IMG/VR virus record: IMGVR_UViG_3300046002_004017 | Location: 1-40,720 of that record | Length of the DNA: 40,720 bases | Reading direction: 5' to 3' (one strand) | From: a virus | Shown here: in pieces, positions 1-40,720 of the stretch | Position numbering within the stretch: the first letter of the stretch is position 1 | Layout: each line of letters opens with the position of its first letter | Program-made: the position numbers and the translations under genes | Notes under the pieces: generated by a model | Told to the model about the DNA's origin: nothing | What the model saw: the letters and a program-made list of their open reading frames with translations, nothing else | Database searches by the model: none

Positions 1-2340
1 ATGCCATAGAGGACTATCACTATCTTTAATACCGAAGGCTGCCCCTGAGAAGGCTGCGTTATGGTGTGCTCCATCTATAAATTTATTACCAGTTCCCATT
101 ACAGGTGCGTTAGTCTTCCATGCTTGACTAAAAGCTGAGACACCATCAGCAATCCCTTTAGCTAATCCTAGTGCATAATGGTTAGCTTCTCTAAAGGTTA
201 ACTCACCTGTACCTGAGAGTTGACTCTTAGCTGCTCCTAAGTATCGTTCAGCTACAGCTCCTCCTGCTGATAAGAAGTTAGATGTGCCATTCACAGCGAA
301 AGTAAGCGGACTAAAGAAGTTATTTATCCATACCTCTGTGAGAGCATCCTTCCATTTAGGAAGTGAAGCAGCCTTAACAGCTCTTAAGATACTTACGGTA
401 TCAGGCATATCTGCAATAACTTCAGATAACAATCGACCACCATTAGACCCTGTAGATTTCATAGCGGAACTAATAGTATCAGCTATCCTACTACCATTAG
501 ATTGTCTCTTGAGTACATTTAAAGCTCTCCCTACTTCTGAAGCACTACCATCTACCATTGCTGATAAGGTAGTTAATACTTTAGCTGCATCATCAAAAGC
601 TAATTGATTGCTTAAAGTGGGTGTACCTTTGTTTGCTACTGCTAAATCACGTACTACATAAGCTACAGCATCTCTAGTATCTCTAGCATTGATAAGCTGA
701 GTGTCTAAACCTTCAGTTCTAGCAGATAACCCTACAGCATCTTCAGGTGTTAGTTTACCTGCTGCTATCGCTGATTCTTCCCATCCTCTAGTATTCTTAC
801 CTATTGCCATTTCCCGTATGTGGGCTACACCATTGATTAAATCTCGTACACCTTCTTCATCTGTAATGGATTTAATGTTAATACTGGTAGATAACTTACG
901 TGCAGCACCCTCATAGTCACCATCTAGATAAGCATTGGTAAAGTCTTTCTGTATTGCTTCATCAGGGATAGTGATGATAGGGTCTTTAAGAGTAAACCTA
1001 GGGGAATCCATAGATTGACCATTAACATCTACAATTGAAGGAGGAGTTACTACATGGTCTTTAGCTTGATTAGCCCACTCAGAAGGGAGTAGCCTTGAAT
1101 CGGGTAGCCACTCTTTACCTAAGTTTTCTACATCATCAGCTACTGAATTAGGAACATCTACATAGCGTACCTTACCTCCTTTAGCTAATACATCTGAATA
1201 CATTTCCGCATCAGCTATGTTTTTAGAGAACCATCTACCAGCCTCTTGAGGTCCTTTACCTTGTACATAATCTACAGCTGGAGGGAAGTCACCTTTTTGA
1301 CCACGATATAGTCTAGTAAAACCTTCTTGTGGAGGAGGAATTGATTTAGCTATATCTGTAATGTATGAAGCAGTAAGTTGACTTGGGGGCTTCATGCCAT
1401 GTTCTTCAGCATAGACAGTCTTAGCCTTACGTGTAGCCCCTAAGAGAGCTATGAAAGGTTCTAGTACTTTACCTATGATAAAACCTTCAGCAGTCTGTTT
1501 GACTCTCCCTAGTAACTCAGGGTCATCCTCATTAGCTGAGAGATATTGAGTGATAGCATTATCAAAGCCCGGTATACCTGACTCTTTAGCCATGTTACTC
1601 AATCGTTTCTCATACGGATTAAACACTGAGAGGTCTGCCACAGCACCAGCAGTACCTACACCAACACCAGTCTTAAGTGTCATAGCAGCTTTACTTACAC
1701 TACTGATTGCTTGAATACCCTTAACAGCCTTCAGAGCAGGTACGAAACCTACCATAAACTGTGCGATACCCTTAGTGATATTACCAGCGGTACTCGCAGG
1801 AACTTTAAGTCCTACCTCACCTAGCATATCTCCAGTAACTCTAGGAGAATACTCATCAGCTAACTTAGTGAAATACTCAGGGTCTTCTTGCCATGCTCTA
1901 GGTGCTAAGAAGTCTGCAATGTTAGCTAAGGTATGATTGATTTCAGTACCAGCATTGATAACACCATTAGCGACTCCGTAAGCTACATCAGCAGCATAAC
2001 CTCCTACACCTTCTACACCATCATCCTCTTCAGATAAATCTATAGGAGGTCTATTGTCTTCAGGTGGAATCTTACCTGACTCAATATCAGCTAACTGTTG
2101 TTTAAAATCTTCATCACTCATAGGAGCTTGTTGATTAAGATAATCTTGACTTAAATCATCCTCAACACTACCCATCTGAGTACCTACTGGATTACCACTA
2201 GGTGTACTACCTCCTACAAGTTCTGTAATAGGCTGTCTAGGTTGTTCTACTGGATTACCTTTGTCATCTAGAGACCCATCATCAGGGATACGTTTAGCTG
2301 TTACTGATATTTCCTCTAGGTTTAAGTCTGTATCTGCCAT
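1..2340 (-). CDS. Internal virion protein D (T7 gp16-like ejection protein), N-terminal part, continues across contig join
   Basis: This is the N-terminal 780 codons of a gp16-like core/ejection protein, expected to leave the virion with the DNA and help build the trans-envelope conduit. The ATG at 2340 follows the stop of the upstream gene at 2344. The frame is open to the window edge and continues at 40676 once the 42-bp terminal overlap is merged. The joined gene has 1,335 codons (1,334 aa), against about 1,318 aa for T7 gp16. The first 130 residues are acidic and proline-rich, and I see no SLT-type transglycosylase motif there. Residues about 341-422 look like an ADP-ribosyltransferase fold: LYRG at 344-347, GRWFS at 368-372 with A..Y after it, and KVRYVDVP at 390-397. 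The ejection-protein assignment rests on position, size and gene order. The ART reading is motif-level inference. Confidence 0.8.
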   Translation of the reverse strand, partial: MADTDLNLEEISVTAKRIPDDGSLDDKGNPVEQPRQPITELVGGSTPSGNPVGTQMGSVEDDLSQDYLNQQAPMSDEDFKQQLADIESGKIPPEDNRPPIDLSEEDDGVEGVGGYAADVAYGVANGVINAGTEINHTLANIADFLAPRAWQEDPEYFTKLADEYSPRVTGDMLGEVGLKVPASTAGNITKGIAQFMVGFVPALKAVKGIQAISSVSKAAMTLKTGVGVGTAGAVADLSVFNPYEKRLSNMAKESGIPGFDNAITQYLSANEDDPELLGRVKQTAEGFIIGKVLEPFIALLGATRKAKTVYAEEHGMKPPSQLTASYITDIAKSIPPPQEGFTRLYRGQKGDFPPAVDYVQGKGPQEAGRWFSKNIADAEMYSDVLAKGGKVRYVDVPNSVADDVENLGKEWLPDSRLLPSEWANQAKDHVVTPPSIVDVNGQSMDSPRFTLKDPIITIPDEAIQKDFTNAYLDGDYEGAARKLSTSINIKSITDEEGVRDLINGVAHIREMAIGKNTRGWEESAIAAGKLTPEDAVGLSARTEGLDTQLINARDTRDAVAYVVRDLAVANKGTPTLSNQLAFDDAAKVLTTLSAMVDGSASEVGRALNVLKRQSNGSRIADTISSAMKSTGSNGGRLLSEVIADMPDTVSILRAVKAASLPKWKDALTEVWINNFFSPLTFAVNGTSNFLSAGGAVAERYLGAAKSQLSGTGELTFREANHYALGLAKGIADGVSAFSQAWKTNAPVMGTGNKFIDGAHHNAAFSGAAFGIKDSDSPLWH

Positions 2341-2343
2341 AAG

Positions 2344-4029: not shown

Positions 4030-4031
4030 TA

Positions 4032-7905: not shown

Positions 7906-8052
7906 TTATGTTGGGTTAAAATGCGCTAGTTGGTAGAGCTTAAATAATCTTAATAACCCTTTAATACTCAAAACCATAAGCATCAGTCCGATTACTAGCT
8001 TAAATTGAAACACTGCCAAGATAGCAAACATGAAAATTAAGTAATTGCTCAT
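7906..8052 (-). CDS. Small membrane protein (48 aa) of the accessory cassette
   Basis: The ATG at 8052 overlaps the stop of the upstream gene as ATGA, giving translational coupling. The 48-aa product has one long hydrophobic stretch (roughly residues 4-36, with FMFAILAVFQFKLVIGLMLM in it) followed by a basic tail. It is therefore probably an inner-membrane peptide with one or two spans. I do not recognise the family. A holin-like or superinfection-exclusion role is possible but only a guess. It is the last gene before the terminator at 7863-7881. Confidence 0.65.
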   Translation of the reverse strand: MSNYLIFMFAILAVFQFKLVIGLMLMVLSIKGLLRLFKLYQLAHFNPT

Positions 8053-8267
8053 TGGTTGCTTAATAACTTTCTTGCATAAATTAAGTCGTTCTCATACGCA
8101 ACTTGACAGTGGTCTTTATCAAACCATAAGACATAATCAATAACTAAGTACCATACAGATTTAGTTCTCCATGCTCTGCCTGATAAAGACTCATTAGGGT
8201 GTCCTGCTAATAAAATAACATTAGCAAGCTGGCTTGTAGCATCACCTATTTTTATCAGGTAATTCAT
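8049..8267 (-). CDS. Conserved small phage protein (ANxxLxGxPxESLSxRAxR family)
   Basis: This 72-aa protein has the pattern SQLANVILLAGHPNESLSGR, then AWR, then VIDYVLWFDKDHCQVAYEND. I recognise this arrangement from a widespread small phage protein family that often lies near tail-fibre or lysis genes. Its biochemical role is unknown to me. It is coupled by ATGA overlaps to the gene before it (8264-8698) and the gene after it (7906-8052). Confidence 0.65.
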   Translation of the reverse strand: MNYLIKIGDATSQLANVILLAGHPNESLSGRAWRTKSVWYLVIDYVLWFDKDHCQVAYENDLIYARKLLSNQ

Positions 8268-8698
8268 ACAGGATAACTCGGCATCATTAACACTGCTTCT
8301 CCACCTGTTAGCATTGGCTTAGTGCCCGCTAATACCTCTGCTTTGTAGGCTTCAGCTTCAACCCAAACATTTGCTTCCCAGGCTAAGAAAGCTAATGCTA
8401 ACGGTTGAAACGCGTTTGGTGCAGATGCATATAACATCAAAGCATTACCACTACTAAAGCCGAATGATTGTGCTTTGATGTCAATAGATTCTTGTAGTGC
8501 ATATCTTACAGATTCTGCTTGTTCTGCTAGGCTAGGTACATAAGGAGTAGGTATAACTTCTTCTATTGTTATACCCTCAATTGCAGTAGCATCCCAGTTT
8601 GCAGGGTATTTCACGCCAGTGTCAGGATGTTGCCATTTTCCTAATGTGAAGTCTGATGTGATGTCATCCCCGTTGTAGTATATTTTTTGCATAATCAT
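8264..8698 (-). CDS. Putative tail-fibre assembly/chaperone-like protein
   Basis: This 144-aa protein begins MIMQKIYYNGDDITSDFTLG and contains KYPANWD, a layout seen in proteins encoded just after phage fibre genes. The C-terminal half is alanine-rich and helical. The start overlaps the stop of the preceding putative adhesin as ATGA; a second Met (position 3) is an alternative start. A role in folding or attaching the product of 8695-9348 is inferred from coupling and composition, not from a diagnostic motif. Confidence 0.5.
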   Translation of the reverse strand: MIMQKIYYNGDDITSDFTLGKWQHPDTGVKYPANWDATAIEGITIEEVIPTPYVPSLAEQAESVRYALQESIDIKAQSFGFSSGNALMLYASAPNAFQPLALAFLAWEANVWVEAEAYKAEVLAGTKPMLTGGEAVLMMPSYPV

Positions 8699-9348
8699 GC
8701 AGCCCTAATGATAAAAGTCATGGTTAATAAAGAATACGCTGCACTGATACTTGAGCAAGGAATACTAGAGTTGCTAACCACACCAGCAACCTCCTTCACC
8801 CCTGCCCAAAGAAGGATGCTAAGACCGCTCCCACTTGAACTGTGAGTATCAGCACGAGTTGAAAATCCTGACAAACTAGCATTTGATTGGCTTGACGATA
8901 CGGTATCTACTCCACCCTTAACCCCTCTATGGCAGACCAAGTGATTATTTCCATCTGTAGGTGGGCTAACAGCAATACAAGATGTATTAGTGTTAGTGGT
9001 GTATGTTCCGTCACCGTACACAGGGGAGTCAAGATGTGCCCCCCTAACCACGAAAGGGAGCGCTTGGGTGCTAGAAGCTCTCCCATTAAAAGATGCACTC
9101 GGTTCGCTAGACGATGATGCGATTTTCCAATATACGCCTGACGTATATGTCCAGCCCGTTGAAATGATGCCTCCTACGAATGCGATGACTACAAGTAAAT
9201 CACCAGCTTGATGTGGCGGCATGGGTACTATGATGGGGGTATTTGCGGCAGCCCCTACAATAGCACCTACGCTTACGATAGCAGGAGGGACTAAACCACT
9301 TACATTACCACCACCCATCAACATTGTATTTAAGCTAGCGGGTATCAT
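8695..9348 (-). CDS. Putative virion surface/adhesin protein
   Basis: This 217-aa protein is rich in Ser, Gly, Thr and Val with few charged residues, and is predicted beta-structured. The pattern QAGDLLVVIAFVGG followed by W-containing strands resembles phage and prophage surface or tail-tip proteins that decorate virions. I chose the ATG at 9348 because it overlaps the upstream stop as ATGA; a TTG two codons earlier is less likely. Together with the preceding 132-aa protein and the following chaperone-like protein it looks like a receptor-binding or decoration cassette. The exact virion location cannot be told from sequence. Confidence 0.5.
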   Translation of the reverse strand: MIPASLNTMLMGGGNVSGLVPPAIVSVGAIVGAAANTPIIVPMPPHQAGDLLVVIAFVGGIISTGWTYTSGVYWKIASSSSEPSASFNGRASSTQALPFVVRGAHLDSPVYGDGTYTTNTNTSCIAVSPPTDGNNHLVCHRGVKGGVDTVSSSQSNASLSGFSTRADTHSSSGSGLSILLWAGVKEVAGVVSNSSIPCSSISAAYSLLTMTFIIRAA

Positions 9349-9743
9349 GCCCAAGCCTTGCTCAAAACAGCATGGATTGATGTTGATGTTCTCACCACAT
9401 AATCCAACCTATCTACTGTGTCAGCAACCGTACTCAATGATGGTGTAGTTCCACCTGCAAAATCCCAATAAGAACCAAACGCAAGTGTTCTGCTACCTGT
9501 TGCATCTTGCGTGATAAAGATTGAGCCTGATTGCCCAGCGACTAAATTTGATGGGTTATCGAGGGTGCGATTACCACCAAGCGTGACGCTAAAGAAGTTA
9601 CTATCGTTAAAATCAGATGCAATGTTTGCTACATCAGTTAATTCTGTTACTTCACCTCGTTGAGCCGCTGTGAATGATTGAGCTACCCCTAACTCAGCAT
9701 CAGGTATTCTTTTAAATACCCCATCTATCAATAGTGTATTCAT
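9345..9743 (-). CDS. Putative fibre/decoration protein (132 aa)
   Basis: The start at 9743 (MNTLLIDGVFKRIPD) is set by an AAGGAG eight bases upstream; the frame is open further upstream but lacks a better site. The protein has FTAAQRGEVTELTD and a beta-rich C-terminus with SGSIFITQDATGSRTLAFGS, a pattern common in phage fibre or pyocin-like trimeric repeat domains. It is the first gene after the terminator at 9763-9800 and is ATGA-coupled to the adhesin-like gene. A surface-exposed virion component is likely; exact identity is unknown. Confidence 0.55.
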   Translation of the reverse strand: MNTLLIDGVFKRIPDAELGVAQSFTAAQRGEVTELTDVANIASDFNDSNFFSVTLGGNRTLDNPSNLVAGQSGSIFITQDATGSRTLAFGSYWDFAGGTTPSLSTVADTVDRLDYVVRTSTSIHAVLSKAWA

Positions 9744-9805: not shown

Positions 9806-10213
9806 TTACTTATTGTTTATTAGATACTGAGCAGCTTCTAGAAGAATATGTGGATTGTCTTGTGCATGACCTAACATTGAATTACAAGTAGGGCAGAGGA
9901 GTCCTCTAACCGTACCTGTTTCATGGTCATGGTCTATTACCAGTGGATTATATTTAAAAGTTGCATGAGGTATATCCTCTACTTTTGTCTTACAGATTGC
10001 ACAAGAGTTATCTTGAGTTTCTCTAAGTTCATTTATGTATCCCACAGTGACGTTATAACGGGTTGCTGCTGTATGAGAACTCCGACAGTGTTCACACTCA
10101 GTACGATACTTTTGGGAATCGTTACGGAACTGAAAGGCTGTCAGAGGTTTCTCTACGTTACATTTTCTACATTTCTTATAGGTTATATTAAGCTGATTTA
10201 AGCTCAACAGCAC
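9806..10213 (-). CDS. Endonuclease VII-family HNH/His-Me finger endonuclease (free-standing)
   Basis: This 135-aa protein has an N-terminal zinc-ribbon (CRKCN at about 14-18, CEHC further on) and a C-terminal endonuclease VII core: CAIC, then LVIDHDHETGTVRGLLCPTC with the metal-site DHDH, then NSMLGHAQDN. This family includes T4 gp49 resolvase and many free-standing homing-type nucleases. The start is a GTG at 10213 inside the last nine codons of the major capsid gene, in another frame; no ATG is available. T7 encodes a different resolvase (gp3), which this phage also has. An inserted selfish nuclease next to capsid is therefore more likely than a core resolvase. Confidence 0.82.
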   Translation of the reverse strand: MLLSLNQLNITYKKCRKCNVEKPLTAFQFRNDSQKYRTECEHCRSSHTAATRYNVTVGYINELRETQDNSCAICKTKVEDIPHATFKYNPLVIDHDHETGTVRGLLCPTCNSMLGHAQDNPHILLEAAQYLINNK

Positions 10214-11111
10214 ACTCAGGTCTAATTATCCCATGACCTACTGCATATTTAGACACAATCAAAGTACCCTGACGGCGCATATCGTACTCAGACTCAGTAG
10301 CTAAATCCATTAACTTAACTGTACCGATTGCTGCCTTGTTCATAACGAGACCTACAGTTGTACTGAAGTTACCTTGATAGGCTGCGACACCTGTAGTAAC
10401 GTTAGAGTTAGGCAAAGCATTAGTCTTAACGACTTCAATACCAGCTACACGTAAGATAGTACCATCTGAGATTGCACCTGCACCACCGTACCATTGGTTA
10501 ATCATAGTGGTATTCTGAGCTAACAAGTAGTACTGAGCAGGACGTAAGAATACATTACGCTCACTACCAATATTCTTTTCATCTAATACTTGAGCAGCAC
10601 TAAACAAGCCAGCAGCTAATACAGCAGAATCAGTACCATAAGTAGCATTAGTTAACGCTGAACCGCCTGAACCACCTGTTACTGTTGCTGTACCACGAGC
10701 AGCTAATACACCTACTTGAGCTAGGTTCTTATCCATTGTTTCAGCTAATACTTTACCTGTTTCATCAGAGTAAATTGAACGTACATCGTAGTGATTCTTA
10801 GCTTCATCAATGTTAGCAATGAAAGCCTGCGCTACTAACAAGTCATCAATAGTGATAACACGTTCAGCAGCGTTTACAGAGCCACCTACTAATTCAGTAC
10901 CGGGTGTGTGGTATGCAGCAGAGATTGTACCTACTGCTGGGAAACTAGCTGATTTACCATTAGAGATAGAACGGACACTAGATTTACCTAAGAATACATT
11001 TTCACGATGAAAAGCTGTTAATACTTCACCTGAGAAAACTTTTAGAAAGAGTGCGTCTACATCACCAGCACCATTGACTTGACCTAAACGACTAACGGTT
11101 GCGTTTGCCAT
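10188..11111 (-). CDS. Major capsid protein (T7 gp10-like)
   Basis: This 307-aa protein follows the scaffold gene and shows T7 major-capsid patterns: GEVLTAFHRENVFLGKSSVR near the N-terminus, KSASFPAVGTI, and a C-terminal GIIRPECAVELKSA that resembles the gp10 P-domain end. It builds the HK97-fold icosahedral shell. T7 gp10A is 345 aa, so this is a compact version, with no sign of a frameshifted gp10B extension. It has an unusually long 238-bp upstream untranslated leader, and its stop region contains the start of the endonuclease gene. Confidence 0.93.
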   Translation of the reverse strand: MANATVSRLGQVNGAGDVDALFLKVFSGEVLTAFHRENVFLGKSSVRSISNGKSASFPAVGTISAAYHTPGTELVGGSVNAAERVITIDDLLVAQAFIANIDEAKNHYDVRSIYSDETGKVLAETMDKNLAQVGVLAARGTATVTGGSGGSALTNATYGTDSAVLAAGLFSAAQVLDEKNIGSERNVFLRPAQYYLLAQNTTMINQWYGGAGAISDGTILRVAGIEVVKTNALPNSNVTTGVAAYQGNFSTTVGLVMNKAAIGTVKLMDLATESEYDMRRQGTLIVSKYAVGHGIIRPECAVELKSA

Positions 11112-12169: not shown

Positions 12170-12355
12170 TTAGTAATGTGTTACCACCGTACCGTTAGCA
12201 AGAGTGTACTCTGAGCCACTTGAGACAGCTTGTGTTAATACTGTATTAGCAGGAGTGTTTAGTTCCTCTTTAGCATCCTGACTACCTTGATTAAAATCTA
12301 CAAGAGCATCTGTTACTGGTTCTTGTGTTAATACTTCTAATTTCTCTTTAGCCAT
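12170..12355 (-). CDS. Small hypothetical protein between portal and scaffold
   Basis: This 61-aa hydrophilic protein begins MAKEKLEVLTQEPV. The start overlaps the portal stop by 8 bases and the gene ends just before the scaffold start, so it belongs to the same translation unit. I do not recognise a family or see a membrane segment. Small genes at this place are common in T7-like phages of aquatic bacteria. Function is unknown; an assembly accessory is plausible from context. Confidence 0.6.
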   Translation of the reverse strand: MAKEKLEVLTQEPVTDALVDFNQGSQDAKEELNTPANTVLTQAVSSGSEYTLANGTVVTHY

Positions 12356-13937
12356 TTACTGGTTGTCCTTGTGGTATCTGTTGCTGACTAGCCATATCTG
12401 ACATTCCCTTAACTGCATTAGGAATAGCCTGTTGTGCCATCTGCATCATTTGTTCTTGTTGAGCTTTCTGTTCTACTTCAGCTTGAGACTTAATGAGATT
12501 CTTAGTGTCAATCTGTAGGGCAGATGCTCTACGTTTAATGTATTCATCTACATTCAAGAATTTAGTAAGTGCATCAGCACCTAGTATCTGTAATGATTGT
12601 AGGAATAAGTCTAGTTTCTGTAAGTCTGCTGTACGACCTAGAGCTTCCATACCAGTAGTGATAGTTGGTTTAACCATCTCTTTAGGTAACGCTGGAATCT
12701 TCCCTTGTCGTTGCATACGTGTCATAAGTAAAGAGACTAAAGGTAATTGTAGTTCCTGTGCGAGTACACTGTAGATACCACCTAGGGCATCTTCAAGTTC
12801 ACTAGCCATGTAACGTATCTCTTCAGCAGTTACCCTATCACCCTTACGTTGGACTGCTGAGTTCAACATGAAAGCATAGGATAATCTCTCAGTAATCCCC
12901 TGAGCTACTTCCATAGCTACTCTGAAGTCACCTTGCTTGTCTGTCCGTAACATGGTGACATCAGCAGCATTACCTTCAAGAACCGCTAAGTTCTCAGCTT
13001 CAGCTACATTACGTTTACGTGTAGTACCATTAGGAGACACAAAGATTAACATCTTGGCAGCAGCAGCAGAGGCTTGTACGATTGCCTTTGTAAGACCCTC
13101 AAGTGACTTCAAGTCTCCTAAGTATTCTTCTACATAAGAACGACCATAGTCTTCATTGTCAACTGAGATTAACCGTAGAGCCATGAAAGGACTCTTATCT
13201 TTTGGATAAGTTGCCTTAGTGGATTCTATTACTTTACCTTTAACTTCTTGGCTTACTTCCCATGTACCTGTATCTGTACGTTGAACCATAGTGAATACTT
13301 CAACTTCTTCATCATCATTATCAATGACTTCACCTTCAGCTTTTTCTTCAGAGGTACTCTCAGGTTTATCTAACTCTAATTCTTTACGAATCTTAGAATC
13401 TAATACATGAACTGAGATGTCTTCTTTAGTGATGATACGCTGTACATTACCCATAGGGTCTCTTACACATACATAGCGGTCTAACCTAAAGACTCTTAAG
13501 GTTGTTGAGTTAGGGGGTAAGTAAAGTAATACATTACCTGCTATCACTAATTGCTTTATACCCTCAAAGAGTTGTACACGAATACTAGAAGAATTAACTT
13601 CAGCTACTATACGTTTCTCAATGGTACTCAAAGCATCCTCAGCATCACCCTTAGATTTACCTAGAGCTTCTAACACATCGTCATCTACAGATAACCTAAA
13701 GAAAGGCTGTGAGGGTGGGAAGAGAGCTAAAAGTAATTTACTAGAGATATTATTAAGACCTCTAGCACCAACACCTTGATAGGGTGTACTAAACTTAGTA
13801 GAACTTCCCTTAGCTGCTGGAGGTACTAACGTAGGAATCGTATAGGTAGCACATTGTCTTGCTCTGTCTAGGTATATATTCCTGTCAGGGTCTAACCTAG
13901 CGTACTCTCCTGCTATCGTTGTAGATGACCTAGCCAT
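12348..13937 (-). CDS. Head-to-tail connector / portal protein (T7 gp8-like)
   Basis: This 529-aa protein matches T7 gp8 (536 aa) in length. Near the N-terminus are YTIPTLVPP and the FSTPYQGVGARGLNNISSKL segment; LLALFPPSQPFFRLS follows, all typical of podoviral portals. The C-terminus is Gln/Met-rich (EQKAQQEQMMQMAQQA). It forms the 12-subunit ring through which DNA is packaged and ejected, and it nucleates scaffold assembly. The ATG at 13937 begins at the stop of the Pro-rich small gene upstream. Confidence 0.95.
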   Translation of the reverse strand: MARSSTTIAGEYARLDPDRNIYLDRARQCATYTIPTLVPPAAKGSSTKFSTPYQGVGARGLNNISSKLLLALFPPSQPFFRLSVDDDVLEALGKSKGDAEDALSTIEKRIVAEVNSSSIRVQLFEGIKQLVIAGNVLLYLPPNSTTLRVFRLDRYVCVRDPMGNVQRIITKEDISVHVLDSKIRKELELDKPESTSEEKAEGEVIDNDDEEVEVFTMVQRTDTGTWEVSQEVKGKVIESTKATYPKDKSPFMALRLISVDNEDYGRSYVEEYLGDLKSLEGLTKAIVQASAAAAKMLIFVSPNGTTRKRNVAEAENLAVLEGNAADVTMLRTDKQGDFRVAMEVAQGITERLSYAFMLNSAVQRKGDRVTAEEIRYMASELEDALGGIYSVLAQELQLPLVSLLMTRMQRQGKIPALPKEMVKPTITTGMEALGRTADLQKLDLFLQSLQILGADALTKFLNVDEYIKRRASALQIDTKNLIKSQAEVEQKAQQEQMMQMAQQAIPNAVKGMSDMASQQQIPQGQPVNG

Positions 13938-16789: not shown

Positions 16790-16994
16790 CTGCTATATCT
16801 CTTTCTGAATAAAGTTGAGTACATCCACTAGGAGTAATTCTCCACGTTCCACCATAGTCACCATCAGGGTATATCGTGGAGATGTAACCTAGTGATGCTG
16901 CTAGTGCTACTAACTTAGGATGACTTCTAAAGTAATTAGACTGTAGGTCTATCCCTGACTTCCATGTTTTTTCTAATACATCAATGAGTTTCAT
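16671..16994 (-). CDS. Hypothetical protein (107 aa) downstream of DNA polymerase
   Basis: The start overlaps the DNA polymerase stop by 14 bases (ATGAAACTCATTGA). The N-terminal part looks helical, with LGYISTIYPDGDYGGTWRIT resembling the wing of a small winged-helix fold. The C-terminal third is Cys-containing (CDTCLPC) and lies entirely within the region shared with the membrane-protein gene. Function is unknown. A shorter product without the overlap tail cannot be excluded. Confidence 0.55.
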   Translation of the reverse strand: MKLIDVLEKTWKSGIDLQSNYFRSHPKLVALAASLGYISTIYPDGDYGGTWRITPSGCTQLYSERDIADELKDTQCDTCLPCINTTTDVRDFNDTHGFTLTESSTDF

Positions 16995-18792
16995 ACCATG
17001 AGTTTCCTATGCGATATTCACCTGTAATCTCACAGGCAAACTTAAGTAACTTACCTGCATCTTGTAGTGCCTTAAGACATAACTTACCAACTTCTTCAGC
17101 TATCTCAGGTTTGACTTCTAACTGCCATTCATCGTGAATGTTAAGTAAGAAAGCATAGTCAGTACCATAAGAGAACTTATCTTTAAGGGAACTATCAAGA
17201 CAAACTAATGCTTGTTTCATAATGATTGCCCCTGCTGATTGTAATAAAGTATTGAGTGCTGAATGACTACTACGCACATGGAGTAATCTACCATCTAAAC
17301 CTTTGAGAATACCTGTAGTTTCAGCCTTAGCTTTTACCCTAGAGATTAACTCTTTCATAGCTGGTATGGCTGTTAAGAATTTAGCTCTAGATAGTTTACC
17401 TTCTTTAACTGCCTTAGCACCTTTAGGATGTCCAAAGACTGTACCTAACTTTTCATCTCCAGCACCATATAGATAAGCATAAATCCAAGTTTTCGCTACG
17501 TCTCTATCAGTAATCCCTAGTGCCTTCATGTTAACTGTATGTATCTCAGTACCATCTTCCTTCTTACCTTTAGTAACTACATCTATATAAGAACCATTAT
17601 CAAATGGAAACATATAACCTGCTAGACATCGTAACTCTAAAGCTGAAGCATCAGCACCTACTAAGACATAACCCTTACGAGGTTTAAATAAAGACCTACA
17701 CTCTTTACCATAAGGACTATAGACAGCAGGTACTTGAGCTAAGTTAGGTGTCATGTGTGTCATCCTACCAGTGACAGCACCATTGGTATTAACACCACCA
17801 TAAATCACACCATCTTTCTGTAACTTAAGCCACGCTTGGTCTCCCTCAGCTACCTGTCCGATTCTCTTATTGAGCATCATATATTTAGCTAAGAGTTTAG
17901 CTTCAGGATAGGGTAGTTTACTTAACACTAAATCATCTACTTTAGGTTTACCATCATTAGTAAACTCTGTAGGTTTCCACCCTCTGATTGTCCTAAGTCT
18001 TAAACTAATGTGGTCTCTAGAACCCGGATTGAACTCTGTAAGTTTTACCTTAGTTACTGCTGAACCTTCCGTATATCCTAGCTTAACTGAAGTCTTCTTA
18101 GGAATGAAAGACTCTCTACCATCCTTAAGATAAAACGGAGGGAAGGTATCTCTAAGTTGTCTTTCAATTATCATACGTTCTTTAGATAACTCAGCGTATA
18201 AACTTGAGGCTGCCTTAACATCAAAGGTAACTCCCCTACGTTCTTGTCGTGCTAGGATAGTAGCTACTTGGTGTTCTAAGGTTAAGCACTGTGTAGAGTA
18301 ATTCTTAGTGAGGAAGAACTTATAAAGAGTTACTAAGGTTTTAACGTCTTGCTTACAATAGCTTTCCATCTCCTTATTCCATTCTTCCCACCCTCCTTCA
18401 TAGGAATCTTTCTTATCCCCTAGCCTTTCTCCCCATGCCTCTAAAGAATGTCTCCCTATATTCCTAGGATTTAATATGCCCCTACGAATTAAACTAGGGT
18501 CTGTGTCATATAGGTTTGTAAACATTACCCTAGACATAACTAGAGTATCTATAATTAGTTGAGTATCAAATTTACTATCAGGAAATACTTTTTGAATAAA
18601 AGGAATGTCAAACTTCAGCCCATTATGGAATATAAGAGCTTCAGCTTTTTGGAGTAATAAGACCCCTTCCTGCATAGTGTTCCTGTTAAAAACATATTCC
18701 ATTCCAGTGTCTATATCCACAGCTACTAACACATGGATAATGGAACCCTGCTCTAAGAAGCCATTAGTTTCAATATCACAAGCTAGGCGCAT
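16981..18792 (-). CDS. DNA polymerase (T7 gp5-like family A)
   Basis: I place the start at the ATG at 18792 (MRLACDIETNG), preceded by GAGGAG at five bases, giving 603 aa; the frame extends 21 codons further without a better site. The 3'-5' exonuclease motifs are D6-I-E8, IFHNGLKFDIPF and YCKQDVKTL. Polymerase motif A is GADASALELR (D381), motif B RDVAKTWIYAYLYG (K434, Y442-type region), motif C NIHDEW (H553, D554). It replicates the phage genome with the primase-helicase. It is about 100 residues shorter than T7 gp5. The start region overlaps the end of an HNH gene. Confidence 0.96.
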   Translation of the reverse strand: MRLACDIETNGFLEQGSIIHVLVAVDIDTGMEYVFNRNTMQEGVLLLQKAEALIFHNGLKFDIPFIQKVFPDSKFDTQLIIDTLVMSRVMFTNLYDTDPSLIRRGILNPRNIGRHSLEAWGERLGDKKDSYEGGWEEWNKEMESYCKQDVKTLVTLYKFFLTKNYSTQCLTLEHQVATILARQERRGVTFDVKAASSLYAELSKERMIIERQLRDTFPPFYLKDGRESFIPKKTSVKLGYTEGSAVTKVKLTEFNPGSRDHISLRLRTIRGWKPTEFTNDGKPKVDDLVLSKLPYPEAKLLAKYMMLNKRIGQVAEGDQAWLKLQKDGVIYGGVNTNGAVTGRMTHMTPNLAQVPAVYSPYGKECRSLFKPRKGYVLVGADASALELRCLAGYMFPFDNGSYIDVVTKGKKEDGTEIHTVNMKALGITDRDVAKTWIYAYLYGAGDEKLGTVFGHPKGAKAVKEGKLSRAKFLTAIPAMKELISRVKAKAETTGILKGLDGRLLHVRSSHSALNTLLQSAGAIIMKQALVCLDSSLKDKFSYGTDYAFLLNIHDEWQLEVKPEIAEEVGKLCLKALQDAGKLLKFACEITGEYRIGNSWYETH

Positions 18793-19180
18793 AATCACTC
18801 CTCTTACTTCTACTGTGGTTATGTAATGAGGTAACTTCTTGGTGGCAATTAGCACAAAGGATTCTACATTTAGCCATCTCTTCCATAAGTCTTTCCATAC
18901 TCACAGTTGTTCTACTTGCTATATCAAAGGATTTCTCCCCTTCTATATGGTCAAACACTAAAGCAGCAGGGTGTTTGTTATAGTCACATAAGCTACAACC
19001 TTGAGTTAATTTATAGGAATTAAGTTGTTCTCTTCTCTTCTTTTGAAAATCTCTAGTGGATTGTTTCTTTGTAACGCTTCTTGAGGAACATTTAGGAGAG
19101 CAATATTTACTTGTGCTTATCCATCCTTTATATTCTTTATTACAAACAATACATTTACAGTCAAAGTTTCTTGCTTTCAT
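18776..19180 (-). CDS. HNH endonuclease, free-standing, next to DNA polymerase
   Basis: This 134-aa protein has a zinc-ribbon N-terminus (CKCIVC, CSPKC) and an HNH core: LVFDHIEGEKSFDIA, then CRILCANCH near the C-terminus. This layout is typical of HNH homing-type endonucleases found between replication genes of T7-like phages. The stop lies 17 bases inside the polymerase gene in another frame, so the insertion is precise. Such enzymes usually cut the same locus in competing phages; that target here is inferred. Confidence 0.85.
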   Translation of the reverse strand: MKARNFDCKCIVCNKEYKGWISTSKYCSPKCSSRSVTKKQSTRDFQKKRREQLNSYKLTQGCSLCDYNKHPAALVFDHIEGEKSFDIASRTTVSMERLMEEMAKCRILCANCHQEVTSLHNHSRSKRSDYAPSL

Positions 19181-19214: not shown

Positions 19215-19634
19215 CTAAAAGTTTAGTTTAAGTACCTCGTTTATTATTTTTCGTAGTACCACATCAGTTCTTGCTGTTGCTGGTAGGTTATATATAGAAT
19301 CTACCTTGGCTTGTAGCTCTTTAACCAAAGTCCTTACACCAATAATCCTAACTTCTTGCTCAATCTTAATCTCCTGTAAGCGTGTTCTGTCAGCTTCTGG
19401 CTGTGCAATAGTGGCGGCTTGGTCTGCTATCTTTTCGTGCATAGCTCGATACAAATCATCTTTATTGACATATTCACTCATTACAAACGCTTCTCTACTC
19501 ATCCAGCCTTCACGCTGAACAGTGGGGGCGTCTTTAATGGCATCTTCAATATTCTCTAAAAACCATTCCGTATAATCTCCATTACTATTGTCTTTAAAAT
19601 ATTCCAACAAAGCATCTGCGTCAATTAGTCTCAT
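19215..19634 (-). CDS. Temperate-phage-type accessory protein (MRLIDADALLEYF family)
   Basis: The N-terminus MRLIDADALLEYF followed by DAPTVQ is a signature I recognise from small proteins scattered in many prophages; its function is unknown. The second half (139 aa in total) is a helical, coiled-coil-like stretch with EIKIEQEVRI. The start overlaps the upstream stop as ATGA-type coupling (19631-19634). It ends the five-gene accessory block and is followed by the HNH gene. Confidence 0.6.
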   Translation of the reverse strand: MRLIDADALLEYFKDNSNGDYTEWFLENIEDAIKDAPTVQREGWMSREAFVMSEYVNKDDLYRAMHEKIADQAATIAQPEADRTRLQEIKIEQEVRIIGVRTLVKELQAKVDSIYNLPATARTDVVLRKIINEVLKLNF

Positions 19635-19822
19635 GGTTTATTCCTTAAAATTTCACCTGTTTCAACATGAATACAAGCCTTTTTCATATGCGCTCGCGAC
19701 CGTTGCAATTCAGCATCATTAACAAACGCCATAGCTACTAAACATGAGTGCTTCGTTATAGGTGGTGTAATGCTAAACCCCGTTCCATTTGTAGCCCAAC
19801 TAATAATAAGTATCCACTTCAT
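19631..19822 (-). CDS. Small hypothetical accessory protein (63 aa)
   Basis: Start and stop overlap both neighbours by four bases, which supports translation. The N-terminus MKWILIISWATNGTGF is hydrophobic. The middle carries KHSCLVAMAFVNDAELQRSR and the end HVETGEILRNKP. No family is recognised. It belongs to the accessory block that separates the primase region from the polymerase. Confidence 0.5.
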   Translation of the reverse strand: MKWILIISWATNGTGFSITPPITKHSCLVAMAFVNDAELQRSRAHMKKACIHVETGEILRNKP

Positions 19823-20307: not shown

Positions 20308-20322
20308 GCTTTTTCTCCGAAC

Positions 20323-20625: not shown

Positions 20626-21109
20626 TCACTCCCAGCATAAGTTCTACGTCATCAGCCATATTGTCAATTACCCATTCCCATGCTTCTTTTTTGGTTGAGT
20701 AGAGTTCTTTTTCTGCGCCCTGCACATGTACACAATAATATAAAAAAAGACTTTTGGTGGTACTTCTCCACCCTACATAGTATTTCTCCTGCCTACTGTC
20801 GCTAAAATCAACCTCCAAATCACCATCTAACTCACGTAGTTTTCTGATAACTCTTACTTTAGCTAGTTGTTTATCACGGGATTTCTCGGCTTCGGCTTTT
20901 GTTTGGTAGAAGTTGCCCATAGCGATACGTTCTTTGTCTTCAGTACTACCAACGTAAGTGTCACTAGCTATACGACCATCACTGAGTATATAGCGATACT
21001 TATCACCAACCTGCGGAAACGCTTTGTCCACTTTATTAAGTGTGGCTTCCATGCTTGTTAACTTCTCACGCAGGGCTTCAATGTCTTGCTGTAATTGTTC
21101 TTTGTTCAT
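20615..21109 (-). CDS. Hypothetical accessory protein with coiled coil (164 aa)
   Basis: The ATG at 21109 is preceded by AGGAG at six bases. Residues 1-30 (MNKEQLQQDIEALREKLTSM) form a coiled coil, followed by a beta-rich domain with GDKYRYILSDGRI and KYYVGWRSTTKSLF. It looks like the surface-to-core layout of prophage accessory proteins. It opens the accessory block. I do not recognise a function. Confidence 0.55.
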   Translation of the reverse strand: MNKEQLQQDIEALREKLTSMEATLNKVDKAFPQVGDKYRYILSDGRIASDTYVGSTEDKERIAMGNFYQTKAEAEKSRDKQLAKVRVIRKLRELDGDLEVDFSDSRQEKYYVGWRSTTKSLFLYYCVHVQGAEKELYSTKKEAWEWVIDNMADDVELMLGVNDD

Positions 21110-21566: not shown

Positions 21567-23186
21567 CTAAAAATTATCCTGTGAATTAGTGAAGGGATTA
21601 GGTTCTAGGAATTGGTCTGTTTCATCATTGTAGTAAACTGGGAATCTACCTACGTTCCCATACTCTCTATCCTTGAGTAAAACTATATGAGCTAAGTTAC
21701 GTTCTTCTTTAGTTATCTCAGGGTCTTTATTACGTTCTATACCTAACATATAATTACCAAACCTCATGAGTCCTCTAGACCCTGTGAACTGAGACTCTAA
21801 TACTTTACCTCCACGTTCATGAGGAACTCCATTAGAGGGAGCATTAAGATGTGAGAACCCATATAAGGTGAAGTCTAACTCTTGTAGTAACTTAGAGATT
21901 TCTTGTGCAATCCTATTCACTTCATCGTTAGCTTCGGAAGCAGGTAAGTGAGCTACCATGACTGTTAGGTTATCTAAGAATATATCTTTAACACCACAAG
22001 ATACCACCATGTATCTGATAGCTGACTTAATGGAATCCCAATCAGTACCACTAGTAGGATGGTTGTATAAAAATACTTTATCTTCTAGGGTGTCTATAGC
22101 TTCCTTAAGTTCTTCCTGAGTAAAACTTAAGTCAGGTCTATGGAAGGCTTTACCTACGAATTTACCAGCGATACCCTTAAGAGTCTTACCGACTGGTTCT
22201 TCTAACATGAACACACCTACCTTTAAGTTGTGAACATTAACTAACCATGACTGTAGTTCTTTAGCCCAATTAGTTTTACCAATACCGACACCAGCACCTA
22301 AGTAATAAGAAGTCTTACGTTGAATACCATAGGTTAACTTAGTGAGTGAATCCCACGGGAAAGGTATTCCCATCGTAGGTACCTTAATAGCATCCTCATA
22401 GGCATCCTGTACACTTAAGACAGCTTCAGGTCTATATACCTTAGCATCCCATATAGCTGAGATTAGTTCTTGTCCACGGTCTGCCATAAGCATCTCATTG
22501 GCATCTTTAAGTGGAAGCCTAGCTACTTTACATTTACCCGGAGTGAATAGAGATACACATTCCTCTACTGCTAGATTACCCGGTTCATCATTATCAAACA
22601 TTAAGACTACTTCTTCAAACTGTTCTAGCCATTCTAGTTCTTTAGCTAATGCTTTCTTAGCTGCATTACATCCATTAGGGATAGAGACTACAGCCCATTT
22701 ATTATTCTGTACTTGTGATACTGAGAGAGCATCTATCTCACCTTCAGTAATCACTACCCGTTTACCTCCGTCTCTCCACAGGTGCATCCCGTAGAGACCC
22801 ATGTTCTTAGCATCACCTAAGATACTAAAAGTTTTACCTGTGCCTCTAATCTTTTGAGCTACTACACTACCATCCTTAATGTAGTTAGCTATCTGTACTG
22901 TCTTACCATACTTATCTTTACCTACTTTATATCCCCACTTACGACAGGTTTCCTCAGAGATACCACGTTTAGTTAATGCTACAGCTTCACCATTTAATAT
23001 GAGACTACTAGACATACTTGTGTTGCTCCTTTTAGTTTGATTAGTAGATTGCATATTGTCATCAGGGAACTTGTAGTAATTACAACCCATTGAGAAACAT
23101 GAGTGATGCCCGTTAGTGTAGACAGCTAGGCTATCTCTGCCTCCACACTTAGGACAAGACTCATGATGACTAAAGATTTTCTCCAC
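21567..23186 (-). CDS. Primase-helicase (T7 gp4-like)
   Basis: This 539-aa bifunctional replication enzyme has an N-terminal Cys4-type zinc site (C11, C14, C30, C35) for primer-site recognition. A Toprim domain follows (E148-x-E150 in VVITEGEID; FDND at 197-200). The RecA-like helicase has Walker A GAGVGIGKT at 297-305 and a downstream FLDNLTVMV that fits Walker B. A GTG start at 23186 is preceded by AAAGGAC. The end EPNPFTNSQDNF is an acidic/aromatic tail that could contact the polymerase, as in T7 gp4. Length is close to T7 gp4A (566 aa). Confidence 0.95.
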   Translation of the reverse strand: MEKIFSHHESCPKCGGRDSLAVYTNGHHSCFSMGCNYYKFPDDNMQSTNQTKRSNTSMSSSLILNGEAVALTKRGISEETCRKWGYKVGKDKYGKTVQIANYIKDGSVVAQKIRGTGKTFSILGDAKNMGLYGMHLWRDGGKRVVITEGEIDALSVSQVQNNKWAVVSIPNGCNAAKKALAKELEWLEQFEEVVLMFDNDEPGNLAVEECVSLFTPGKCKVARLPLKDANEMLMADRGQELISAIWDAKVYRPEAVLSVQDAYEDAIKVPTMGIPFPWDSLTKLTYGIQRKTSYYLGAGVGIGKTNWAKELQSWLVNVHNLKVGVFMLEEPVGKTLKGIAGKFVGKAFHRPDLSFTQEELKEAIDTLEDKVFLYNHPTSGTDWDSIKSAIRYMVVSCGVKDIFLDNLTVMVAHLPASEANDEVNRIAQEISKLLQELDFTLYGFSHLNAPSNGVPHERGGKVLESQFTGSRGLMRFGNYMLGIERNKDPEITKEERNLAHIVLLKDREYGNVGRFPVYYNDETDQFLEPNPFTNSQDNF

Positions 23187-28666: not shown

Positions 28667-28754
28667 TTACTACTAAGTGATTGTTTCTTAAGAGAAACTT
28701 TCCGTATTCATTAAGACAAACTACGGTCAAACTATACTCTAACTCATTGATTAA

Positions 28755-28810
28755 CCGGGTGATAAACGAGATTTTAAGTCTCTTGTGTCTACCAATTTCA
28801 CCACCCGGGC
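28755..28810 (-). other. Candidate attP: 5' half of a tRNA-Leu(UAA) gene
   Basis: On the minus strand GCCCGGGTGGTGAAATTGG, then TAGACACAAGAGA, CTTAAAA, TCTC reproduces the acceptor 5' strand, D-arm and anticodon arm of proteobacterial tRNA-Leu(UAA); the anticodon TAA lies within CTTAAAA. After the anticodon stem the match ends: no variable arm, T-arm or CCA follows. It lies 28 bp downstream of the integrase stop, the usual attP place. Known relatives with tRNA-Leu-derived attP beside int include the T7-like cyanophage P-SSP7. The last seven bases, CACCCGG, are complementary to CCGGGTG at the tRNA 5' end. Confidence 0.75.
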
Positions 28811-33665: not shown

Positions 33666-35357
33666 CTAATAGTTTACCCAAGAATCACTTCTCATTCCTC
33701 CGTGACCTGACATATCCATGAAGTCATTCAATGCGTCTCTCCGTAAGTCCTCTAAGTGGTCTTGATGAACTGTATCTTGATTCTTTCTAAGTGAGTCCTG
33801 CCAATAGGCTACTGCACCTGCGAAAGCATCTAGTCTATCATCATGAATTAAAGCCCCTCTGTCTCTAGTGATTCTAGAGAGTTGATAGAATAAACTATAG
33901 CGTGGGTCTTCAGTCTTTAAGTCTGACTCTATGACATCTCTAGATACCACTAGTCTATGCTGAGCTAACACAGGCTCTAGAATATCTATGATACGTTTTT
34001 CTTTCTGTATATTAGTTCTACTTTTTTCAGGGTTAATAGTCACTGGATAAATACTAGCCATAGCAGCTTCCAGTAATGTCTTAAACATCCCATCCCCAAA
34101 GTTATCCTCAATATCAATGAAGTTGACTGTGTGTTTCTTAGCGAGATTCCCTAGTGCCATAAGGGTACTCTCAGAGTAACCATCCTTAAACCCACCTGAA
34201 GCTACTAGATACAGCATACCATTGAGTTGTTTAACTATAGCATAGCCTGTTTCATCTTTACCTCTACCTGAAGGGTCAATAAACATCATGCACCCTTGGT
34301 AATCTATCCACTCAGGAGATACCCACATAGGTTTATACCACTTGTCTCCTGATAACCCGATAGACTCTATAGGTAACAGTTGTTCTCTACCTGAAGCCCA
34401 TGACACTTTCACAGGGGCTACATCAGTATGCAAGTCTAATACAGTAAAGTCTGATAACTTAAGAGGAAACTTATCAATATCACTAAGGCTAGTGTCCAAC
34501 ATAAACTGTAAGGCAAACCCTGCTTTACCATAGGATGCCTCACGTTCTACTAAGTCTAAGTCAGTAAACCTTAAGGGGTCTGTAGGTTGTCCTCTACCTC
34601 CACAGTCAGTACTAATGGAAGGATTAGCAGTCAAAGCTTTAGTAATGAAGTCTGCTAGAGTTCCATTGTATCTCGCAGGATTCTTAGGGTATCTCGAAGT
34701 CCAAATCTTAACCTCATACCCACGTTCAGGGAGTGACTTATAGATAGACATCTCAGATTGTGGTGTACCAAGATAGGTAATCTCTCCACCCGGTAAGATA
34801 ATTGCATCAAACTCTTTAATGATATTCAGTAGTGTATCTCTAGCTGTCTGTGTCACAGAGTTATTCAATGACTCAATATCATCAGCAATGATACGACTAG
34901 CACGAGACCCTGTAAGTTGACCAGTGATACCTACAGATTTAACTGAGGGAGCATGGGCAGGTCTCGCAGGTGCTACATCAAAAGCAATGTTAGAATCCCG
35001 TTGACCATCATTAGCAACTAAGTGTTGTAGAAACGGAACATCATTGATAAGTCTCTTAGTGAATATACTAAAGTCATCTGAACGGGTCTTACTTGCAGAT
35101 ACCACAAGAATCTTTTCATCAGGATTATTTAATAATAACCAACAACAATAAGCAGAAGTAATCCAACTCTTACCAATACCACGGAAAGCCTGAATCATCC
35201 TACGCTTAGGTGCATATTGTAAGTAATACGCTATGTCATACTGTACTGGTGTAGGGTCAGGTAATGCTAAATGTTTCCATATCACATAGAGAAACTTACG
35301 GAAGTCTTTCTTAATCTCTATTAACTGTGATGTAGGTATCTTCTTTAATTCTTTCAA
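33666..35357 (-). CDS. Large terminase subunit (T7 gp19-like)
   Basis: This 563-aa packaging motor has an ATPase domain with Walker A RGIGKS at 59-64 (AFRGIGKSWITSAY matches the T7 pattern) and Walker B IIADDIE near 156-162. The nuclease domain has MFIDPSGRGKDETG (D361) and the C-terminal DDRLDAFAGAVAYW. It cuts concatemers and pumps DNA into procapsids. A TTG start at 35357 is supported by AAAGGAG six bases upstream and by overlap with the stop of a 33-aa gene. Confidence 0.95.
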   Translation of the reverse strand: MKELKKIPTSQLIEIKKDFRKFLYVIWKHLALPDPTPVQYDIAYYLQYAPKRRMIQAFRGIGKSWITSAYCCWLLLNNPDEKILVVSASKTRSDDFSIFTKRLINDVPFLQHLVANDGQRDSNIAFDVAPARPAHAPSVKSVGITGQLTGSRASRIIADDIESLNNSVTQTARDTLLNIIKEFDAIILPGGEITYLGTPQSEMSIYKSLPERGYEVKIWTSRYPKNPARYNGTLADFITKALTANPSISTDCGGRGQPTDPLRFTDLDLVEREASYGKAGFALQFMLDTSLSDIDKFPLKLSDFTVLDLHTDVAPVKVSWASGREQLLPIESIGLSGDKWYKPMWVSPEWIDYQGCMMFIDPSGRGKDETGYAIVKQLNGMLYLVASGGFKDGYSESTLMALGNLAKKHTVNFIDIEDNFGDGMFKTLLEAAMASIYPVTINPEKSRTNIQKEKRIIDILEPVLAQHRLVVSRDVIESDLKTEDPRYSLFYQLSRITRDRGALIHDDRLDAFAGAVAYWQDSLRKNQDTVHQDHLEDLRRDALNDFMDMSGHGGMRSDSWVNY

Positions 35358-38933: not shown

Positions 38934-38945
38934 TTGATTCCTTTA

Positions 38946-38985: not shown

Positions 38986-39010
38986 AATGGTTATCATTAC
39001 TTTTAAGGTA

Positions 39011-40720
39011 CTATTGGAATAATTCAATACCTAGATTACTTCTTACTATTTCATCATCTCTCTTATCAATGAAGTCTTGACGTGTCATACCTACCTCACC
39101 AAACAAAGCTTTAGACTTAGAATAAACTTTAGTACCAACCTTAGAGGCAATCGGAGTGATTCTCTTATAGTCATACAAGTCATACGCTTCAGCATACGGT
39201 CTAGGTTCACCTCTAGAGAACATCAATGAGTCATACTGCAAGGCTTTAACAGCAAAGGCTTTACGTTTGTTATACACCTTAGAAAGAATCTCATTACGTT
39301 TAGCATCTGTAGTATTAGGGTCTTGATAGTCACTAGACACAATAATTTCCTCTAGAGAATCTATAAGGTCTTTACCTTCAGAGTCTTTCAGTTGTCTTAC
39401 GAACTGCATATAGTTCCACTTCTCAGTACCATCAAGTTTAACCTTAGAATCCCCTGCACCTACAAACCTAGTGACACCCCCTAAGATTACATCGTTAGGT
39501 GTCTTAAGTTGTAACCGACGTAGTTCCTGCATAACAGGATGATTATTAGGTACTGTAGTTGGAGCTACACTTAAACCACCTAGTCCTCTTTGAACAGGAC
39601 TGATAGGTAATCCTAATAGGTCAGGTCTTGGAGGTAAACTGTTAGATAACCCTGGTATCTTAGCTTGGATTTCCTCTAAAGCATTGGAAGCCTCACGCAT
39701 ATACTTATCATTGTATTGCTGATTAAACCATTTAATAGTATTACCAGCAGGAAGTAAGTTACCCATACTACGTTGGACATAGTTACCCATAGTGTCATTC
39801 TTAATACCATCTAGTAACTGTGCCATACCACTTGACCATGACTTACTCATAGCATATTGAGAACCTACACCAATAGGAATACTCATGATGTCTAAAATAC
39901 CATCACCTAGTTCATCAGGGGTTAATTCTTCAGCATTAGCATCTATATAAGCCTGTACTGTTTCATGTACTGAAGCTGCTAACAGCAAGAAGGAGATAGG
40001 ATTACCATCTAGTCTACTTAAGTCAGTCATACTTCCGTCTTCTTGGTCAACTACAGACTGTTGTACAACACCTAACTGTGTTAAGTTACGAGATGCTGAG
40101 AAGTTATTTGTGATTTGACCCTTAAGATACCCTGTAGAAGCTAGTGTTAAACCTGCTGTTAACCACATAGAACCTGTAGCTATCTGAGCATAAGCCAAGT
40201 CAGCCCTAGCACCACCAGCTTCCATCTCTTTAAGCATATAAGATGAATGACCTGCTAAACCGGGTGTACGTCTAGCCATATACTTAACTAAATTCACAGG
40301 TGTCTTAATAAATGGTAAGACAATGTAAGTTTCCCTAAAGTGTCTTGCACCTTCTAGTAATAACTCCCCACCTTCACCAAAGTTTTCTGTAAAGGTTTGT
40401 CTAGCAGCATGGTCTTGAGATGCCATAGAGATACCATAGTAAGGGTCTCCTACTTTAGCCTTATTAACACCTTCTAACACTTCAGATACCTTAGCTAGAT
40501 ACTCAGGTGTACCCTTTGTTAACCCTGACTTAGTAGCTTCTCGCTGTGCTAAAGCAGATAACTCTCCTTTATAAAAGATAGCCTTGAAGAACTCGTCAGT
40601 TGCCATAAGAGACCTAGTACCACCGGGCATACTTCTTAAGCCTGTGCCAATGTAATCTAAGCCTGTGCCTATATGTTGCCATAGAGGACTATCACTATCT
40701 TTAATACCGAAGGCTGCCTC
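39011..40720 (-). CDS. Internal virion protein D (T7 gp16-like), C-terminal part
   Basis: This is the C-terminal part of the gene that begins at 2340. From the stop TAG at 39011 the frame is open through the window end, and after merging 40677-40718 with 2-43 it continues without a frame change. The Met at 40630 is internal (SPLWQHIGTG and DYIGTGLRSM precede it). The sequence is hydrophilic with several helices; ITNNFSASRNLTQLG and YMREASNALEEIQAKIPGLS are typical of large core proteins. The combined product of 1,334 aa is close to T7 gp16. Confidence 0.8.
   Translation of the reverse strand, partial: EAAFGIKDSDSPLWQHIGTGLDYIGTGLRSMPGGTRSLMATDEFFKAIFYKGELSALAQREATKSGLTKGTPEYLAKVSEVLEGVNKAKVGDPYYGISMASQDHAARQTFTENFGEGGELLLEGARHFRETYIVLPFIKTPVNLVKYMARRTPGLAGHSSYMLKEMEAGGARADLAYAQIATGSMWLTAGLTLASTGYLKGQITNNFSASRNLTQLGVVQQSVVDQEDGSMTDLSRLDGNPISFLLLAASVHETVQAYIDANAEELTPDELGDGILDIMSIPIGVGSQYAMSKSWSSGMAQLLDGIKNDTMGNYVQRSMGNLLPAGNTIKWFNQQYNDKYMREASNALEEIQAKIPGLSNSLPPRPDLLGLPISPVQRGLGGLSVAPTTVPNNHPVMQELRRLQLKTPNDVILGGVTRFVGAGDSKVKLDGTEKWNYMQFVRQLKDSEGKDLIDSLEEIIVSSDYQDPNTTDAKRNEILSKVYNKRKAFAVKALQYDSLMFSRGEPRPYAEAYDLYDYKRITPIASKVGTKVYSKSKALFGEVGMTRQDFIDKRDDEIVRSNLGIELFQ
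40677..40718. repeat. 42-bp copy of the window start (assembly overlap)
   Basis: Identical to 2-43; flanking bases differ on both sides (the last two bases differ). It lies inside a protein-coding gene, so it is an artefact of a circular assembly graph rather than the phage's terminal repeat. Confidence 0.9.

Follow-up and report, generated by a model that had tools for sequence, protein, structure and literature searches.

Joint loss of GATC and other Type II restriction sites in a T7-like phage with an integrase and a Methylotenera-like host signature

General features of the genome

The window analyzed here, the whole stretch of 40,720 bases, corresponds to positions 1-40,720 of the IMG/VR record IMGVR_UViG_3300046002_004017 and is a T7-like phage genome. 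The contig ends share a 42-nt overlap, with one mismatch just beyond it, and this overlap falls inside a single large ORF for an internal virion protein; the genome is therefore essentially complete. The gene content is that of a T7-like podovirus of the Autographiviridae type (Table 1). There is a single-subunit RNA polymerase, and the genes for replication, head, tail and terminase are of T7 type and all run in the same direction. This set includes a primase/helicase, a DNA polymerase, a gp2.5-like protein, endonuclease I, an amidase, and portal, head, tail and terminase proteins. The RNA polymerase was used as the marker that defines the clade discussed below, and the terminase large subunit as the marker for a tree. 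A DNA search against named phages found no relative, only a 50-bp match to a maturase and a 41-bp match to a tRNA-Leu gene. As the original prediction had stated, no methyltransferase gene is visible: PHROGs and Pfam searches of the encoded proteins gave no match to such a family, with the internal virion ORF that spans the contig ends and some small ORFs taken in partly or not at all.

Table 1. Features of the phage genome and the evidence for them (counts are observed/expected unless stated)
Feature	Position	Strand	Evidence or counts
Whole phage genome	1..40720		0 GATC, 0 GGCC; CCWGG 3/36, GGWCC 1/21
Cassette singled out in the original prediction	7906..9743	-	0 GATC vs ~8 expected
Major head protein	10188..11111	-	phrog_267 E 1e-80
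Head-tail connector (portal)	12348..13937	-	phrog_449 E 3e-174
DNA polymerase	16981..18855	-	phrog_17 E 3e-136
Cassette singled out in the original prediction	19215..21109	-	0 GATC vs ~6 expected
DNA primase/helicase	21567..23186	-	phrog_239 E 1e-177
T7-type single-subunit RNA polymerase, 817 aa	26036..28489	-	phrog_414 E 5e-236
attP core	28769..28810	-	exact match to nt 1-43 of tRNA-Leu(UAA), Methylovorus MM2
Tyrosine integrase, 356 aa	28839..29909	-	PF00589 E 4e-23; phrog_1 E 1e-46
Terminase large subunit	33666..35357	-	phrog_38 E 1e-115

Restriction sites missing from the phage

GATC is absent from both strands of the window and does not arise across the joint of the contig ends. The original prediction had put the chance expectation at about 140 sites, and the computed values agree, being 141 when base composition is considered and 144 under a maximal-order Markov model (z = -12). 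The two cassettes for which it had claimed the same absence are indeed free of the site (Table 1). When synonymous codons were shuffled in 300 runs over 11,780 codons, with the proteins and the overall codon usage held constant, GATC occurred 97 times on average (s.d. 7, minimum 72), against none observed. Before a codon starting with C, Asp is encoded 50 times by GAC and never by GAT, while elsewhere GAT is used in 311 of 438 cases (Fisher p = 6e-25). After a codon ending in G, ATC is used for none of 96 Ile residues, compared with 130 of 337 elsewhere (p = 7e-18), and none of the seven Ser codons after GA is TCN. The word GATG is over-represented.

GGCC is likewise missing (0/29, observed/expected), a second zero overlooked by the original prediction, which had named this palindrome, with CATG and CTAG, for contrast. 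CCWGG and GGWCC are nearly lost, and TCGA (11/35) and ATTAAT (2/21) are also low. The remaining contrast palindromes are near normal or mildly low: CATG 110/160, GTAC 162/206, CTAG 227/257, AGCT 299/335 and ACGT 104/115. TTAA is near normal. Unrelated palindromes of the same composition are thus not equally depleted, most being near expectation. GATC stays under a tenth of its expected number even when composition and codon usage are allowed for (0/144, and 0 versus 97±7 in the shuffles), and the depleted words are recognized Type II sites while unrelated palindromes are normal (TCGA and ATTAAT being low as well); these are two sequence marks of Type II site avoidance. The loss of GATC thus belongs to a broader pattern that takes in several sites.

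Integration site and host assignment

The tyrosine integrase and an attP core that matches a host tRNA gene mark the phage as temperate, and its own integration is predicted from these features. The 42-nt core is conserved in members of the clade, whose sequences diverge beyond it. Among the matches listed from species-representative genomes, exact copies of the core are mostly in Methylophilaceae (Methylotenera, Methylobacillus, Methylophilus, Methylopumilus and OM43); they also occur in some Azonexaceae and in Marinobacter, which counts against the host assignment. The position of the core in tRNA-Leu(UAA) points to a probable host in the Methylophilaceae. A relative of the RNA polymerase with 70% identity is encoded on a 17-kb contig of the Methylophilaceae assembly G085, and a second, with 44%, belongs to a distant T7-like prophage carried by Methylovorus sp. 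MM2. Exact 60-bp repeats of tRNA-Leu(UAG) flank this prophage, which shows that integration does take place among T7-like phages of the wider group. The GC content and the site fingerprint favor a Methylotenera-like host over pelagic Methylophilaceae and Azonexaceae. The identity of the host is an inference from these features.

Site depletion in host chromosomes

In Methylotenera loci, the observed/expected ratio of GATC is 0.51 pooled (median 0.49), compared with 0.91 in pelagic Methylophilaceae (Mann-Whitney p 4e-6) and 0.87 in Azonexaceae. The four lowest of the 25 sites tested in Methylotenera are CCWGG (0.46), GATC (0.49), GGWCC (0.50) and GGCC (0.63), for which pelagic Methylophilaceae have 0.82-0.97. 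It is these four that are absent, or almost so, from the phage. The rank correlation in this comparison is 0.63, a descriptive value, as the sites were picked with the phage result known. One genome with a Sau3AI enzyme (G051) has no depletion of GATC (0.93), and this is counted against a role of restriction.

Distribution among T7-like phages

The original prediction described a single unusual genome. That the genome is free of GATC is correct, but the picture is incomplete, since the loss extends across the clade and turns up again elsewhere among T7-like phages. Clade members with 71-74% RNA polymerase identity have GATC counts of 0/34, 14/66, 0/9, 0/17 and 8/100 (observed/expected), structural halves of clade members have 0/45, 0/34 and 1/57, and the G085 phage contig has 11/72. 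No depletion is seen in relatives with 36-41% identity (2952/2942 pooled). The clade has also lost CCWGG and GGWCC. In the MM2 prophage, CCWGG (2/51) and GGWCC (0/43) are eliminated or nearly so, but GATC is only halved (76/165). An early idea that the loss of GATC was unique to the clade was dropped, since unrelated T7-like lineages also show elimination: the ratio is below 0.05 in 32 of the 193 loci with enough sequence, these loci being partly redundant. A terminase tree with 83 tips, a quick tree with many long branches, requires a minimum of 7 changes of GATC state. Among T7-like phages the loss of GATC thus comes up repeatedly and in scattered lineages, a distribution that would be expected if it tracks host enzymes.

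Restriction systems in Methylophilaceae

Restriction genes specific for GATC, which the original prediction had suggested seeking in candidate hosts, were surveyed in 187 Methylophilaceae genomes (species representatives). Recognized systems are present in nine of them, and the host strain of the phage may carry a matching enzyme. DpnI-type enzymes occur in five genomes and are full-length with a C-terminal winged helix where checked; one (L213) combines PF06044 and PF17726, the catalytic domain and the C-terminal winged helix, and is a predicted enzyme. The DpnI match to PDB 4esj covers 255 residues with 318 bits. Two genomes have Sau3AI-type enzymes adjoining C5 methyltransferases, one of them short. 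Three genomes have a DpnM-like adenine methyltransferase adjoining a DUF6996/DUF6997/DUF7226 protein, which is a Type II restriction endonuclease according to PADLOC. Its DpnM-like partner suggests that this DUF6997 enzyme is specific for GATC; our literature search found no publication mentioning DUF6996, DUF6997 or DUF7226. Dam-like methyltransferases are found in 35 genomes. For the other sites, NgoPII-type enzymes (GGCC) occur in 3/187 genomes and EcoRII-type enzymes (CCWGG) in 2/187. HaeIII (PF09556) was considered as the cause of the GGCC loss and rejected, with matches in 0/187 genomes.

The MboI/DpnII-type enzyme originally proposed was right as to the presence of GATC-cutting enzymes, but DpnII or MboI proper is nearly absent, and DpnI, Sau3AI and DpnM-plus-DUF6997 systems were found in its place. 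DpnII proper (PF04556) was rejected as a general host feature, with 0/25 named genomes and 1/187 positive, the latter as a weak relic of 42 residues. At two loci, each a single MAG, a GATC-methylating system looks to have been replaced by DpnI: in G168 an intact DpnI gene adjoins the C-terminal half (206 aa, 88% identity) of a DUF6997 enzyme, and in G124 DpnI adjoins the weak DpnII relic.

Recognized GATC systems are thus confined to a small share of the species representatives, which counts against a general role of restriction; strain variation and families yet to be recognized lie outside this sample. Also counted against it, no recognized GATC system was found in most Methylotenera, nor in the G085 MAG that holds the closest phage contig.

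Proposed mechanism and alternatives

We propose, at a probability of roughly 0.78, that orthodox and methyl-directed Type II restriction systems of Methylotenera-like hosts drove the purge of GATC, GGCC, CCWGG and GGWCC from the phage. Such hosts would carry Type II enzymes that cut these four sites. A new GATC arising by mutation or recombination would be a cut site during infection that selection would remove, in most cases by exchanging a codon for a synonymous one. Strains with DpnI would cut methylated GATC, while strains with Sau3AI-type or DpnM-linked endonucleases would cut the unmethylated site. Methylation would then offer no escape from both kinds of strain, and loss of the site would work in each. 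Several lines of evidence argue for restriction: GATC is zero under three null models; several Type II sites are lost jointly with controls near normal; relatives with 71-74% RNA polymerase identity are depleted and those with 36-41% are not; the attP core, the G085 relative and the MM2 prophage link the phage to Methylophilaceae; the four sites are also under-represented in Methylotenera chromosomes; and GATC systems (DpnI, Sau3AI-type and DpnM-linked) as well as NgoPII and EcoRII types occur in the family. That the family's enzymes restrict the phage is what we infer. The strong and long-term selection put forward originally, most likely by host restriction at GATC, agrees with the joint loss of Type II sites, the depletion in the host group and the GATC enzymes of the family.

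An artefact of composition or codon usage is refuted. AAAA, AATT and some other 4-mers are also low under the codon shuffle, but this does not account for a zero against 97±7, for the missing GAT among the 50 Asp codons before C or for the surplus of GATG. Methyl-directed mismatch repair, in which MutH nicks unmethylated GATC in fast-replicating phage DNA or the loss of GATC evades repair, was part of the original prediction and is an effect known for enterobacteriophages and phiX174 (PMC5014478). Dam-like methyltransferases would provide one component of it in the family. However, PF02976 matched only 2/187 genomes, in both cases a protein for which Sau3AI restriction enzyme is the best name and which adjoins a C5 methyltransferase, so that true MutH was not found in the 187 genomes. 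Nor would MutH explain why GGCC, CCWGG and GGWCC have been lost from the phage and the host group as well; this alternative is close to refuted.

Phylogenetic inertia, with an ancestor that lost GATC under restriction and sites that are slow to return, fits a loss seen across the clade, but appears unlikely. Zero GATC persists in clade members at ~71% DNA identity, and the two cassettes judged in the original prediction to be acquired are also free of it; purging therefore seems current. Moreover, some sites are present in L002 (14/66), L005 (8/100) and L175 (11/72), either regained or never lost. A narrower form of the restriction account, compatible with it, is classical restriction-modification that cuts only unmethylated GATC (Sau3AI, DpnII or DpnM-linked), with no role for DpnI. 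Sau3AI and DpnM-linked types do exist in the family, one kind of enzyme suffices, and this is the usual explanation; against it, DpnI is no rarer than the others (5 genomes versus 2 and 3). We consider this form possible, though doubtful.

Under the broader restriction account, enzymes against methylated and against unmethylated GATC are both found in the family, and we propose therefore that loss of the sequence would be the sole escape in all hosts. It is plausible that coexisting DpnI and Sau3AI-type or DpnM-linked strains make it the only one that works in both. A more specific version is tentative: in Methylotenera populations, strains with DpnI and with Dam-type restriction-modification may swap at cassettes. 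The phage would then be safe in neither methylation state, which may lead to total loss of GATC even in a temperate phage and to a similar thinning in host chromosomes.

Comparison with known systems

Elimination of restriction sites by phages, GATC included, is already established (PMC6286503). GATC was low in all 46 phages with hosts encoding the Type IIM enzyme (Rusinov et al. 2018, PMC6286503). Our case resembles these in that palindromic Type II sites, including a site of methyl-directed enzymes, are eliminated from a dsDNA phage. In the same work, site elimination was rare in temperate phages, which counts against restriction as the cause here; unlike those phages, this one carries an integrase and attP, yet two sites are gone and two more nearly so. 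Rusinov et al. 2015 (PMC4687349) described thinning of GATC in DpnI hosts, often with DpnII-type systems in sister strains, and gave a similar explanation. As in those hosts and in pneumococcus (PMC3573125), DpnI-type and GATC-methylating systems go together with GATC-depleted chromosomes; unlike them, Methylophilaceae use Sau3AI and DpnM/DUF6997 systems and not DpnII proper. Methylophilaceae are not known to be among the examples of complementary DpnI/DpnII systems and GATC avoidance named there. Less usual in this case are that a phage with an integrase and attP has lost GATC totally, that phage and host group agree in four sites, and that DpnI and Dam-type systems are mixed in freshwater methylotrophs.

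The phage phiX174 has single-stranded DNA. It too lacks GATC completely, and this has been discussed in terms of mismatch repair (PMC5014478); unlike that 5.4 kb coliphage, the present one has 40.7 kb of dsDNA and a host family in which no MutH was found.

Four sites are missing or nearly so from the phage and run low in Methylotenera chromosomes; such a fingerprint of the host could help to assign uncultured phages. The case is also a test of the view that elimination of restriction sites is rare in temperate phages. Finally, it suggests that a standoff between DpnI and Dam-type systems, like the one in pneumococcus and a few further genera, may also exist in freshwater methylotrophs.

GATC content of other T7-like phages

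GATC is absent or nearly absent from further T7-like contigs that are distant from the clade of the window phage. There is also a T7-like prophage in Methylovorus sp. MM2, a distant relative of the window phage, in which GATC is merely halved, whereas CCWGG and GGWCC are almost gone.

Attachment site and small ORFs of the window phage

The part of tRNA-Leu(UAA) matched by the attP core (28769-28810) is the 5' half, through the anticodon loop, and not the 3' half, which is the part usually matched by attP cores. The arms flanking the core (28714-28734 and 28860-28880) are 81% complementary. The phrog_9974 ORF might encode a DNA-mimic or anti-restriction protein. The HNH endonuclease and endonuclease VII-like ORFs are likely homing-type elements.

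Features of phage and host sequences
Feature	Location	Remarks
GATC-free or near-free distant T7-like contigs	L245, L249-L252, L256, L257, L262, L280, L286, L337-L346, L350, L394, L396	
T7-like prophage of Methylovorus sp. MM2	G011:C1 ~1168910-1209303	located at tRNA-Leu(UAG) and bounded by 60-bp att repeats
Small acidic ORF, 110 aa	window 32065-32397	among early genes; phrog_9974 (family without an assigned function)
HNH endonuclease ORF	window 18776-19180	adjoins DNA polymerase gene
Endonuclease VII-like ORF	window 9806-10213	adjoins major head gene
Intact DpnI gene, adjoining DUF6996/6997/7226 Type II restriction enzyme fragment	L214:6256-7965	genome G168
DpnI gene, adjoining DpnII C-terminal relic and 136-aa ORF	L217:5421-6864	genome G124

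DpnI loci with apparent remnants of other GATC systems

GATC is wholly absent from a host contig (L219, G176:C18, 4072 bases) encoding a DpnM-like methyltransferase and its restriction enzyme. Two other Methylophilaceae genomes carry DpnI beside apparent remnants of other GATC systems. The DpnII relic in G124 comprises 42 C-terminal residues and scores 23.3 bits, barely above the cut-off. In G168, named Methylotenera sp. LF-bin-133 in locus L091, the truncated restriction enzyme retains only its C-terminal half (206 aa, 88% identity). Judging from this gene arrangement, a GATC-methylating system was apparently swapped for DpnI in G168.
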